DNA of 49,597 nt from Clostridia bacterium (GTDB taxonomy: Bacteria > Bacillota > Clostridia > Oscillospirales > Acutalibacteraceae), in assembly GCA_017436255.1 (NCBI GenBank), contig JAFSDK010000037.1:1-49597 (forward strand), given 5' to 3'. The notes below the pieces were generated by a model. It made no database searches and had not been told where the DNA came from. It was given only the letters and a program-made list of their open reading frames with translations. Below are positions 37,375-39,693 of the stretch, piece by piece. The first letter of the stretch is position 1. The number at the start of each line of letters is the position of its first letter. Both the position numbers and the translations under genes were made by a program.

Positions 37375-37389
37375 AAAAATTCCCAAGTC
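37375..37389 (+). repeat. Left terminal inverted repeat of the island
   Basis: AAAAATTCCCAAGTC, exactly complementary to 38398-38412. Similarity continues inward for about 23 more bases with mismatches (TAxGGGTxGTA... and TAAGGA). Confidence 0.7.
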
Positions 37390-37392
37390 ATA

Positions 37393-37420
37393 GGGGTTGT
37401 ATCTGTAAGGATACAACCCC
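37393..37420 (+). terminator. Hairpin after the DUF4380 gene
   Basis: GGGGTTGTATC-TGTAAG-GATACAACCCC, 11-bp stem, followed by AGTTTTATT, 22 bases after the stop. Likely the DUF4380 terminator and also the first structure of the array. Confidence 0.75.
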
Positions 37421-37497
37421 AGTTTTATTCGCCTTACGGCGAGTTGTATTGCTTCGCAGTTATATTCGGCTAAAAGCCGAGCGTTATTCGCTTTGCG
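37421..37497 (+). repeat. Array part 1: AGTTNTATT units alternating with hairpins
   Basis: Units AGTTTTATT (37421-37429), AGTTGTATT (37442-37450), AGTTATATT (37458-37466) and AGCGTTATT (37480-37488). After each comes a small exact palindrome: CGCC-TTAC-GGCG, GC-TTC-GC, CGGCT-AAA-AGCCG and CGC-TTT-GCG. Confidence 0.8.
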
Positions 37498-37514
37498 AGT
37501 TTAGGAGCGAATAA

Positions 37515-37596
37515 AATATCACTAAAACCGCAAGGTTTTAATATCACTTTGCCGTTAGGCAAAATATCACTGTGAGACCTGTCTCACAATATCACT
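37515..37596 (-). repeat. Array part 2: AATATCACT units alternating with hairpins
   Basis: Four exact AATATCACT copies at 37515, 37540, 37563 and 37588 (periods 25, 23, 25). The spacers are exact hairpins of unrelated sequence: AAAACC-GCAA-GGTTTT, TTGCC-GTTA-GGCAA and GTGAGAC-CT-GTCTCAC. On the minus strand the unit reads AGTGATATT, one base from AGTTATATT of part 1, so the two parts face each other. Confidence 0.88.
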
Positions 37597-37623
37597 ATTA
37601 AAATATTTTCTCTTGAGATAGTA

Positions 37624-37656
37624 AAACGGATGTGCAGAAATTCTACACATCCGTTT
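37624..37656. terminator. Strong hairpin inside the island
   Basis: 11-bp stem AAACGGATGTG/CACATCCGTTT with an 11-base loop. Confidence 0.75.
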
Positions 37657-37688
37657 AATATTTGTCTCATACCATAACAAGCAGGACA

Positions 37689-37724
37689 TTTGGGTGCCCA
37701 AATATCATTGTTAGGAGAACCTAA
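37689..37724. repeat. Degenerate array unit
   Basis: TTTGGG-TG-CCCAAA hairpin (37689-37702), AATATCATT (37701-37709), then TTAGG-AGAA-CCTAA hairpin (37711-37724): the same hairpin/nine-mer/hairpin order as the main array. Confidence 0.6.
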
Positions 37725-37777
37725 AACCCTTTAATTCATAAATTTGCAATAAGTTGGCAGTACACAAAAGAGTAAAG

Positions 37778-38272
37778 TTAGATCGTCTCTCTTCTAATGC
37801 ACCCCAGATTATTTTCCATTAAATCAAACAATTTATCTTCTGTTGTTTTTAATTCTACAATAGAACGACGAAGTATTTTGGCAAATAACCATCTAAAGAA
37901 TAAAAAAGCATATATAATCAATATAAACGGCGACAATATGATATACAATAAACATTCTCTAATTTTGTCAATCAATCTTCTCAACTTTGATTTTGAGGAG
38001 GTTGCCGAATCACTTTCGGGACCAATATATTCAATGGTACCTTTCAATTCGATTTTACCATTGTATTCTGTGATTGTGGGAATAAACCATTGTCCGCCAG
38101 AGTGTCCTGCGCGTTCAATTCCAAAGTGAATTTTATTATCAACAAATTTAACAATGTAAGCATCAAAATAATAAAATCTGCCATTAGAATACTCATTGTT
38201 AGGAAAAATATTCAATTTATTCAAAAGTTCTTCTTTTGTTCCGTTGAATTCAAACACATATTCCTTTGACAT
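37778..38272 (-). CDS. Orphan membrane-associated protein inside the island
   Basis: 164 residues, no family recognised. N-terminal half is a soluble beta-rich domain (EYVFEFNGTKEELLNKL, then RFYYFDAYIVKFVDNKIHFGIERAG). About residues 108-135 form one hydrophobic hairpin (ECLLYIILSPFILIIYAFLFFRWLF), followed by a charged C-terminal tail. GAGGTG stands upstream of the ATG and a good promoter lies before it. It is the only gene in the island. Confidence 0.75.
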   Translation of the reverse strand: MSKEYVFEFNGTKEELLNKLNIFPNNEYSNGRFYYFDAYIVKFVDNKIHFGIERAGHSGGQWFIPTITEYNGKIELKGTIEYIGPESDSATSSKSKLRRLIDKIRECLLYIILSPFILIIYAFLFFRWLFAKILRRSIVELKTTEDKLFDLMENNLGCIRRETI

Positions 38273-38293
38273 ATTTTATCACCTCTTTTTTGC

Positions 38294-38322
38294 ATTATAA
38301 CATTTCCCATAACTTTTTGCAA
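38294..38322 (-). promoter_or_regulatory. Promoter of the island gene
   Basis: Minus strand TTGCAA (38317-38322), 17 bases, TATAAT (38294-38299). Confidence 0.7.
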
Positions 38323-38331
38323 TAGACATAG

Positions 38332-38356
38332 AAAACCCCACCGAAAAACCGGTGGG
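38332..38356 (-). terminator. Hairpin between antiporter and island gene
   Basis: Minus strand CCCACCG/CGGTGGG 7-bp stem followed by GTTTTC; terminates transcripts leaving the antiporter gene. Confidence 0.65.
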
Positions 38357-38397
38357 ATTAAATCGTTTGCATATGTCCTTAACAGTACTACCCTTAC

Positions 38398-38412
38398 GAC
38401 TTGGGAATTTTT
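38398..38412 (-). repeat. Right terminal inverted repeat of the island
   Basis: GACTTGGGAATTTTT, exact complement of 37375-37389, directly touching the antiporter stop codon. Confidence 0.7.
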
Positions 38413-39693
38413 TTAATGATATTTACCTTCTTTGGCAAGGTCACGTGCGCTGACCTTTTCTTCGGGTCTGATTTCGCCTGCTTTTTGCAATGAAATTTTA
38501 GTAAGGAAAGGACCTACAAGTTCATATATAAGCACCGAGAAAAGCGTTATATTAGCAACTATCGAACCAATTTCCCCAAGCGCTTCAGCCTTAATTGCCA
38601 TACCTAGCGCTACACCTGCCTGTGGGAAAAGTGTTATACCTAAATATTTAACGATATTATTGTCGCAATTAACCGCTCTTGCGCTAAATGATGCACCAAA
38701 ATATTTACCTATACAGCGTGAAACAATATATACTACGCCAATTATTACGATTATATAGTCCTTAAACACCGACAATTCAAGCTCAGCACCGCTAATAACA
38801 AAGAATAGTATTAATAACGGAGAACTCCAACGTTCTACCCTAGCCATAAGTTCTTCTGAGAAATCGCACTCGTTACAAAATACCGTACCGAGCATCATAC
38901 AAACAAGAAGTGACGAAAACGCAACGTGTATTCCACCGATATTAAATTCCAGCATAGAAAGTGCCACCGTCACAAGCACAAAGGTAACCGACATCGAAAG
39001 ACGCTTTGAACGCGAATGGAAAAATCTTTCCGACCAAGTAAATAGCTGACCCATAAGCGCGCCAAGTCCAAGCGATAACACAACCTCTAAAATCGGCTCA
39101 ACAATTACCGAGAGAACGTCTACATGACCCGAAATAAGCGCCTTTGAAATACCGAATGATACCGCAAACAAAACAAGACCCACCGCATCATCAAGCGCAA
39201 CTATCGGAAGTAATATGTCGGTGAGCGGTCCTTTTGATTTGTACTGACGTACAACCATAAGCGTTGCCGCAGGGGCGGTTGCCGATGCTATTGCACCAAG
39301 AACAATAGCAGCAGGAAGCGGAAATTTATTAGGTATAATAAAATGAACACCAATAAGCAAGGCATCAACAACGAGTGTTGTAAATACCGCCTGCACAATA
39401 CCTATAACTGTTGCCTGTTTACCGGTGTTTTTAAGATGTGACAGACGAAACTCATTACCGATTGAAAACGCTATAAAACCAAGCGCCACGTCGGACAATA
39501 TTGAATACGTTTTTATATCACTCATACTTACAAAACCGATACCTTGAATTCCTAAATTGCCAAGCACGTAAGGACCAACCAAAATACCGGCCACAAGATA
39601 TGCCGTAACGGCGGGCAACTTAACAAGTTTTGCAAGACGGGATAGCATTAATCCCGCAAAAATTGCGATTGATAGACTAAGTAAAGCTTGCAT
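38413..39693 (-). CDS. Cation:proton antiporter (CPA2/Kef-NapA type)
   Basis: 426 residues with about 12-13 membrane helices. N terminus MQALLSLSIAIFAGLMLSRLAKLVKLPAVTAYLVAGILVGP is the CPA2 hallmark; ASATAPAATLMVVRQYKSKGPLTDILLPIVALDDAVGLVLFA carries the ion-binding Asp pair region (DD). No C-terminal TrkA-N domain, so a Na+/H+ or K+/H+ antiporter without nucleotide gating. Start at 39691-39693 with GAGGTG 8 bases upstream; 21 residues of upstream ORF are spurious. Confidence 0.9.
   Translation of the reverse strand: MQALLSLSIAIFAGLMLSRLAKLVKLPAVTAYLVAGILVGPYVLGNLGIQGIGFVSMSDIKTYSILSDVALGFIAFSIGNEFRLSHLKNTGKQATVIGIVQAVFTTLVVDALLIGVHFIIPNKFPLPAAIVLGAIASATAPAATLMVVRQYKSKGPLTDILLPIVALDDAVGLVLFAVSFGISKALISGHVDVLSVIVEPILEVVLSLGLGALMGQLFTWSERFFHSRSKRLSMSVTFVLVTVALSMLEFNIGGIHVAFSSLLVCMMLGTVFCNECDFSEELMARVERWSSPLLILFFVISGAELELSVFKDYIIVIIGVVYIVSRCIGKYFGASFSARAVNCDNNIVKYLGITLFPQAGVALGMAIKAEALGEIGSIVANITLFSVLIYELVGPFLTKISLQKAGEIRPEEKVSARDLAKEGKYH

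Follow-up and report, generated by a model that had tools for sequence, protein, structure and literature searches.

Between two convergent genes of a Clostridia bacterium (contig JAFSDK010000037.1; the whole 49,597-nt stretch analysed is called the window) lies an element of about 1008 bp with imperfect inverted ends, and its left part is an array of short units alternating with small hairpins (37421-37596). In the right half of the array, the nine-base linker AATATCACT occurs four times exactly and is separated by perfect hairpins, AAAACC-GCAA-GGTTTT, TTGCC-GTTA-GGCAA and GTGAGAC-CT-GTCTCAC. In the left half, the units AGTTTTATT, AGTTGTATT, AGTTATATT and AGCGTTATT, all resembling AGTTNTATT, are interleaved with the palindromes CGCC-TTAC-GGCG, GC-TTC-GC, CGGCT-AAA-AGCCG and CGC-TTT-GCG. 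A preliminary description of this DNA had noticed the four exact units with their mutually different hairpin spacers, which a pattern search also finds, and the four left units alternating with four exact hairpins, one of which has a stem of only 2 bp. Its account of the array itself stands, and what it left unseen are the ends of the surrounding element: positions 37375-37411 and 38376-38412 match each other as an inverted repeat (87% over 37 nt, in part the host terminator arm), and other copies have such terminal inverted repeats too. The array is one module of a mobile element. The features of the locus are as follows.

37376-37389, plus strand: 5′ arm of the host intrinsic terminator (AAAATTCCCAAGTC), the complement of 38398-38411, uninterrupted in the sister species G075.
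37390-38397, plus strand: whole mobile element, about 1008 bp, delimited by an empty site and the inverted ends, with approximate breakpoints inside the old loop.
37390-37420, plus strand: left end, where the terminal inverted repeat folds into hairpin 0 (GGGGTTGTATC/GATACAACCCC), from folding and the inverted match.
37421-37497, minus strand: left-half linkers at 37421, 37442, 37458 and 37480.
Within 37421-37497, minus strand: left-half hairpins 37430-37441, 37451-37457, 37467-37479 and 37489-37497; the family has GNA-type loops here on the minus strand.
37498-37514, plus strand: centre; 37507-37516 (GCGAATAAAA) pairs with 37423-37432 (TTTTATTCGC) as stem P1, an alternative to hairpin 1.
37515-37596, plus strand: right-half linkers AATATCACT at 37515, 37540, 37563 and 37588.
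Within 37515-37596, plus strand: right-half hairpins 37524-37539, 37549-37562 and 37572-37587; the family has GNA/GNNA loops here on the plus strand.
37624-37656, plus strand: terminator-like hairpin 3′ of the array, from folding; similar ones stand 3′ of the array in other copies.
37664-37729, plus strand: conserved module GTCTCATACC...AGGAGAACCTAAAACCC, present in several elements (C45, C42, L265) in either orientation.
37778-38272, minus strand: passenger open reading frame (ORF), 164 aa, of no Pfam or NCBIfam family.
38336-38357, minus strand: terminator-like hairpin upstream of the passenger ORF, read by eye.
38372-38397, minus strand: right terminal inverted repeat, from the inverted match and end-pattern searches.
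38398-38414, plus strand: 3′ arm of the host terminator with its T-run (GACTTGGGAATTTTTTT), from comparison with G075.

The element splits the loop of a rho-independent terminator. In G075, the same convergent gene pair encloses an intact terminator, AAAAATCCCGAGTC-ACAA-GACTCGGGATTTTT, and the filled counterpart in the window (contig C32 of its own genome, G000) reads AAAATTCCCAAGTC, about 1008 bp, GACTTGGGAATTTT. A second empty site is the G075 counterpart of the element on C5, likewise an intact terminator, with a diverged stem sequence. No clear direct target duplication is seen at these two empty sites, where the terminator arms are inverted. The window copy has no transposase gene, and its sole ORF, the 164-aa passenger, has matches in its own genome and in none of the 78 others among the 79 searched. 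As other copies carry other genes, this ORF, which the preliminary description had proposed as a linked gene to follow across genomes, is a variable passenger. The window copy has no S23p/IVP gene and lies between protein genes, outside any rRNA gene, and an Rfam scan of the window returns two tRNAs and nothing else. The end pattern occurs at eight places in G000, on the passenger elements without transposase of C32, C42 and C45, and at one further place, with 3 mismatches, on C40. The degenerate unit earlier read at 37701 belongs to the separate conserved module at 37664-37729; two other module copies (C45 and L077) have ACTTGTTAGG in its place, and its likeness to the linker therefore looks like a coincidence of the window copy.

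The array belongs to a family. The double pattern AATATCACT-N5-30-AATATCACT is found at four places in G000 (C7, C32, C45, C60), and DNA similarity adds the array on C5 and contig-end fragments on C12 and C50, giving four further arrays and two fragments beyond the window. Among 250 genomes of the taxonomic family, 45 contain the double pattern and none contains its reversed control, so that the same linker recurs in related genomes as the preliminary description had anticipated; the matches in G084 and G192 are false, with non-palindromic spacers of 30 bases. A scan of genome contigs yields at least 116 stretches with three exact units, and all but two of those listed are from Clostridia, Oscillospiraceae or other Bacillota, many from ruminant guts. 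The two are L174 (Planktothricoides), rejected as an unrelated tandem repeat, and L193 (Methanosarcina), grouped with the false or unrelated matches. Six stretches on viral contigs also match. The layout is kept across loci and consists of hairpin 0, AGTTNTATT, hairpin 1, three more pairs of unit and hairpin, the centre GGCGAATAN, and AATATCACT with hairpins 5-7. Since exact right-half linkers were demanded in the scan that yielded L101-L216, their invariance there is partly ascertainment. Partial arrays exist (L101, L112), and L169 contains a GC-rich tandem expansion of linker and hairpins over several repeats.

In 17 of 69 arrays tested, an inverted copy of the upstream arm follows the array, at a threshold that 1 of 69 pairs reaches when the flank of another locus is used; the distance is about 110-205 nt where the element copy is short and about 550-1050 nt where it holds a longer insert. 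A codirectional ORF ends within 120 nt upstream in 42 of 82 arrays, and in 18 of these a convergent ORF comes next, within 260 nt. Terminator-like hairpins stand 3′ of the array in the 22 loci inspected (by eye in many), and a tRNA lies 32-55 nt ahead of the array in 10 of the 75 array loci scanned (80 loci in all, five outside the array list), with a terminator-like hairpin directly between. Beside one array (L089/L270, G184:C29), a palindrome with arms of about 35 bases covers the 3′ end of a tRNA-Ser and its terminator, as if made by snap-back copying. The passengers vary and include the 164-aa ORF, VanW, DUF559, IVP and small proteins of no family. A VanW cassette that adjoins an array at G075:C19 recurs at G000:C45 with 95.75% identity over 1318 bp. 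Around C32, C5 and C7, orthologous regions of the two species align at only 74-84%, so the closeness of the two cassettes points to recent movement. On G000:C45 (L059, 2540-5480), the VanW gene is followed by a second cargo segment and each has a near-identical right end, possibly by accumulation of cassettes behind one left end.

The spacers of the array stay palindromic while their sequence changes, which is the outcome expected from the covariation check set out in the preliminary description. The region 37390-37600 folds as a single strand with z between -7.4 and -9.6 for both strands and both DNA and RNA energy sets, and none of 200 shuffles folds as well in any of the four runs. Of 271 distinct spacers, 206 have a perfect outer stem of 4 bp or more, compared with 3 of 271 in one shuffled draw (L174 and L193 were left out of the spacer and loop tallies, L078 and L079 also of the loop tally). 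In an alignment of the window array with 29 of the 33 arrays that meet limits of length and completeness (L089, L166, L167 and L201 left out), 90.2% of stem cells are paired, with 178 double-change cells compared with 53 after shuffling. The covariation score is 0.487, compared with 0.158 for shuffled and at most 0.096 for slid partners, the structure being taken from the window row, which favours the true over the slid versions. Helix 3 is only 69.8% paired, in a gapped part of the alignment. Stem P1, formed by the first unit and the 5′ arm of hairpin 1 with the centre, is 99.3% paired with 18 double-change cells, and its variable base pair is A:T in 30, T:A in 19 and C:G in 13 of the 64 arrays parsed, with 2 exceptions (18 of 82 dropped). 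One left-half comparison omitted L204 and two entries without a parsable centre. Since P1 excludes hairpin 1, the two either alternate or depend on context. Between the sister species, hairpin 0 of the orthologous C7 array has two compensatory double changes. The earlier proposal of selection on folded RNA or DNA thus holds, and the evidence leans to DNA.

This leaning comes from the loops and from the strand on which they lie. Read on the AATATCACT strand, loops of the type G..A number 165 and those of the type T..C number 5 among 309 distinct hairpins, and a C-G pair closes 152 of 159 G..A loops of three or four bases, the favoured forms being C-GNA-G and C-GNNA-G. In the orientation of the window, the right half has 106 G..A and 2 T..C loops (n=177; 59 versus 2 among 113 distinct hairpins), and the left half has 135 T..C and 2 G..A loops (n=186; 38 versus 2 among 74 distinct hairpins). 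The right half thus has its GNA-type loops on the plus strand, the left half on the minus strand. The stems are Watson-Crick at 1499 of 1518 pairs, and on the AATATCACT strand there are 15 G.T pairs (about 1%) and 4 A.C. Mini-hairpins with GNA loops (GCGNAGC, e.g., GCGAAGC) are unusually stable in DNA, and d(cGNNAg) was reportedly described as a stable DNA loop motif by Nakano in 2002. These are biophysical motifs and not elements, and they have the same loop and closing pair as the hairpins of the array, which would make these hairpins a natural case of selection for DNA loops of exceptional stability. The strand-split loops fit DNA hairpins better than one RNA, and the favourable hairpins occupy the 3′ half of both strands, as if single-stranded 3′ tails at both ends had to fold.

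Several elements of the family encode IVP/S23p proteins. The L098 passenger matches PF05635, and the same N-terminus opens the proteins of L089 and L170; IVP/S23p is encoded in L098, L265, L266 and L270, with N-terminal likeness in L170. In L265, the terminator arm AAATCCCGAC is followed by the end and array known from the window copy, then by a promoter-like stretch, the gene for IVP (TIGR02436) and another ORF; the right end, again shared with the window copy, precedes GTCGGGATTTTTT. As L265 shares array, ends and terminator loop with the window copy and has an IVP gene, the window copy is a relative of IVP elements with another passenger. Of the 250 genomes of the family, 120 have IVP genes, namely 39 of the 45 with arrays and 81 of the 205 without (kinship ignored), and among the matches listed in array-positive genomes, 5 of 44 IVP genes lie within 1.5 kb of a AATATCACT array. 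Thirty IVP loci were read, one per genome and chosen non-randomly from the better scores, and in 16 of the 29 with enough flank the gene is enclosed by an inverted repeat that clearly exceeds what mismatched flanks give. By eye, many of these loci have plain short-repeat arms, e.g., GTCAGTGGTCAGT or AATTAGGAATTAGG, and others have hairpin arrays with different linkers, namely GTGAAGT (L252, L256), GTGATG (L248) and AGCTATATT (L255). In L247, the IVP gene lies between two inverted halves, and a hairpin array with the linker GATTTCATC is present in G000 (L293). The CTTCAC linker is matched in 34 of 250 genomes, but so is its reversed control in 12 of 250, and the matches include plain tandem repeats and coding-like stretches; only 34 hairpin-like clusters, picked by eye, were therefore counted. 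Of these, 6 lie within 700 nt of an IVP gene among the matches listed, where 0.05 are expected in a 2-Mb genome. Arrays that follow this grammar, be the linker AATATCACT or another, thus lie near IVP genes more often than chance would give. The inverted arms of the IVP genes L227-L256 are built from varied short tandem repeats (GTCAGTGG, AATTAGG, AATGCAA, GAGTGGC, GGTAGGA and others). Three plain-arm IVP elements (L249, L250, L240) are flanked, by eye, by direct copies of part of an apparent tRNA-Leu gene, as if insertion had duplicated that part.

The nearest named relatives of these elements are the intervening sequences (IVSs) of 23S rRNA, which, according to parts of PMC4990558, take the place of small tetraloops, end in complementary sequences and encode S23p (PF05635, TIGR02436); the same source calls them selfish and describes their function and origin as unclear. 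Insertion at a small hairpin loop, complementary ends and, in some copies, an IVP gene are shared, and the splitting of a hairpin loop, by which IVSs are recognised, is seen at both empty sites, each a terminator. A further mark of IVSs is their excision by RNase III. The array elements differ in lying in terminators and not in rRNA, in their long array, in their many copies per genome and in their other passengers, with no IVP gene in the window copy. As they lack the defining rRNA location, they are not filed as IVSs. With moderate confidence, the array is read here as the structural non-coding core of IVS-like mobile elements that insert in hairpin loops, with IVP as the candidate recogniser. 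Elements of about 0.35-1.1 kb, carrying no gene, an IVP/S23p gene or other small genes, would enter a hairpin loop, in the window that of a rho-independent terminator. Linkers and hairpins build two inverted arms, each with its extra-stable C-GNA-G or C-GNNA-G hairpins on the strand running 3′ towards its own element end, so that single-stranded tails of that strand could fold into a rod of hairpins joined by a fixed linker. A trans-acting protein, most likely the candidate IVP, would recognise linker and hairpin on single-stranded DNA (RNA being less likely) during the move to another hairpin loop, and the window copy with its foreign passenger gene would have moved in trans. The linkage is most simply read as recognition by IVP, on the basis of genome context. 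A wider version, in which hairpins and not sequences are the targets of a general class of mobile DNA, is tentatively possible. IVP/S23p elements, with inverted arrays of a short linker and sequence-free GNA-loop DNA hairpins as their arms, would enter the loops of terminators, tRNA-linked terminators and rRNA, IVP would be the mobility factor of 23S IVSs, the linkers would vary (AATATCACT, ACTTCAC, GATTTCATC, CATCAC) under a constant grammar, and classical IVSs would be the rRNA case in other bacteria.

Several observations weigh against the proposed IVP-recognised core. The elements examined yielded no transposase or other enzyme that would move them, and IVP is not known to have catalytic activity. 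The presence of IVP genes in the 81 array-negative genomes, together with an IVP-motif ORF within 900 nt right of the array in only 4 of 82 arrays (65 with usable flank; L166 by motif alone), indicates that IVP and linker are only partly linked. The 52 remaining arrays of the 69 fall below the inverted-arm threshold, and loop insertion at the tRNA-linked arrays is putative. Linker-to-linker pairing gives no convincing covariation in the 40 arrays compared, with a highest z of 2.6 (42 of 82 dropped). Finally, 48 of 82 GNNA tetraloops, summed over the 30 commonest loops, are GNRA, which leaves room for RNA, though the tetraloops go beyond this type.

RNA is the substance of the rival that comes closest, in which the array is transcribed as the 3′ untranslated region or a small RNA of the upstream gene and the folded RNA serves stability, processing or termination after the terminator is split. 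The 42 arrays directly behind a codirectional ORF, the terminator-like hairpins 3′ of the array, the strong stem covariation and the slight excess of G.T over A.C all suit this explanation. It is nevertheless rather unlikely, as GNA/GNNA loops on opposite strands in the two halves would make a single transcript favourable in one half only, the tetraloops extend past GNRA, and wobble pairs are rare. Doubtful to a greater degree is the view that the hairpins have no function, the palindromes arising and becoming perfect through template switching in replication, with the linkers persisting as slippage sites. Near-perfect stems are what this process would leave, and a linker of the same grammar does occur as a plain tandem repeat, (CTTCACT)n, and a tandem expansion exists in L169; against it stand the strongly biased and strand-specific loops and closing pairs, the constant number and order of units across aligned arrays, and the covariation of P1 over about 75-90 nt.

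The remaining rival is a REP/BIME-type element (repetitive extragenic palindrome/bacterial interspersed mosaic element) that a RAYT (Y1) transposase would move through its action on single-stranded DNA hairpins. BIMEs are inverted hairpin pairs on single-stranded DNA, the window encodes a RAYT-like protein at 332-847 (NF047646, 68.5 bits at a cut-off of 80), and Y1_Tnp is present in 25 of the 36 array-positive genomes examined. These 36 of 45 served for the Y1 and reverse transcriptase comparisons, with G011, G060, G068, G072, G084, G130, G183, G192 and G230 left out. Y1_Tnp was not found in the other 11, including G003, G004, G177 and G198; 7 of 9 Y1 loci have matches to repeats of the GTAGGGGCGG type (at most 2 mismatches; a single match in L288 and L289), and none of the 9 has an exact copy of the AATATCACT linker. 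REPs keep their stem sequence, with a conserved stem on a GTAG-type foot beside a RAYT gene, and in the array elements the stems are free, the linker is kept and most RAYT loci have another repeat. The likeness lies in inverted hairpins and action as single-stranded DNA; a RAYT origin is improbable. A reverse transcriptase as the mover, or a diversity-generating retroelement with Avd, was considered and rejected, as PF00078 is present in 10 of the 36 genomes and absent from G000; the L265 IVP matches the Avd model with an E value of only 0.0065.

Prokaryotic miniature inverted-repeat transposable elements (PMC10969869) and the pneumococcal repeats are the nearest general kind, as far as the consulted portions of these sources describe them, and the window element shares with the former its terminal inverted repeats and the lack of its own transposase. 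BOX, RUP and SPRITE are also small non-autonomous repeats with folded modules, and in BOX a module can be absent or repeated; compared by description only, the sections of PMC3049150 drawn on here do not describe a fixed linker with sequence-free hairpins or insertion in terminator loops. None of the papers listed in searches of open-licence PMC articles describes the linker/hairpin grammar. Regular short repeats with variable spacers recall clustered regularly interspaced short palindromic repeats (CRISPR), whose repeats measure about 23-47 bases and whose spacers are unrelated. With 9-base repeats, self-complementary spacers and two inverted halves, the array is not CRISPR, as had been recognised at the outset. 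The family is a multicopy and apparently still-moving relative whose empty sites, fixed linker and evident binding substrate make the function and origin of IVSs testable, and its terminator-splitting insertions form a class absent from Rfam, judging by the window scan.

Two other systems were also observed. At 332-847 and 840-930 of the window, the RAYT-like Y1 transposase gene has GTAGGGGCGGC...GCCGCCC repeats around and inside it and sits among GTAGGGGCGG-type repeats of its own; gene and repeats are a separate REP-like system. At L059, 2030-2490, a DUF559 gene between inverted GCCTCCCTTGTG...CACAAGGGAGCC ends is another terminator-like small element.
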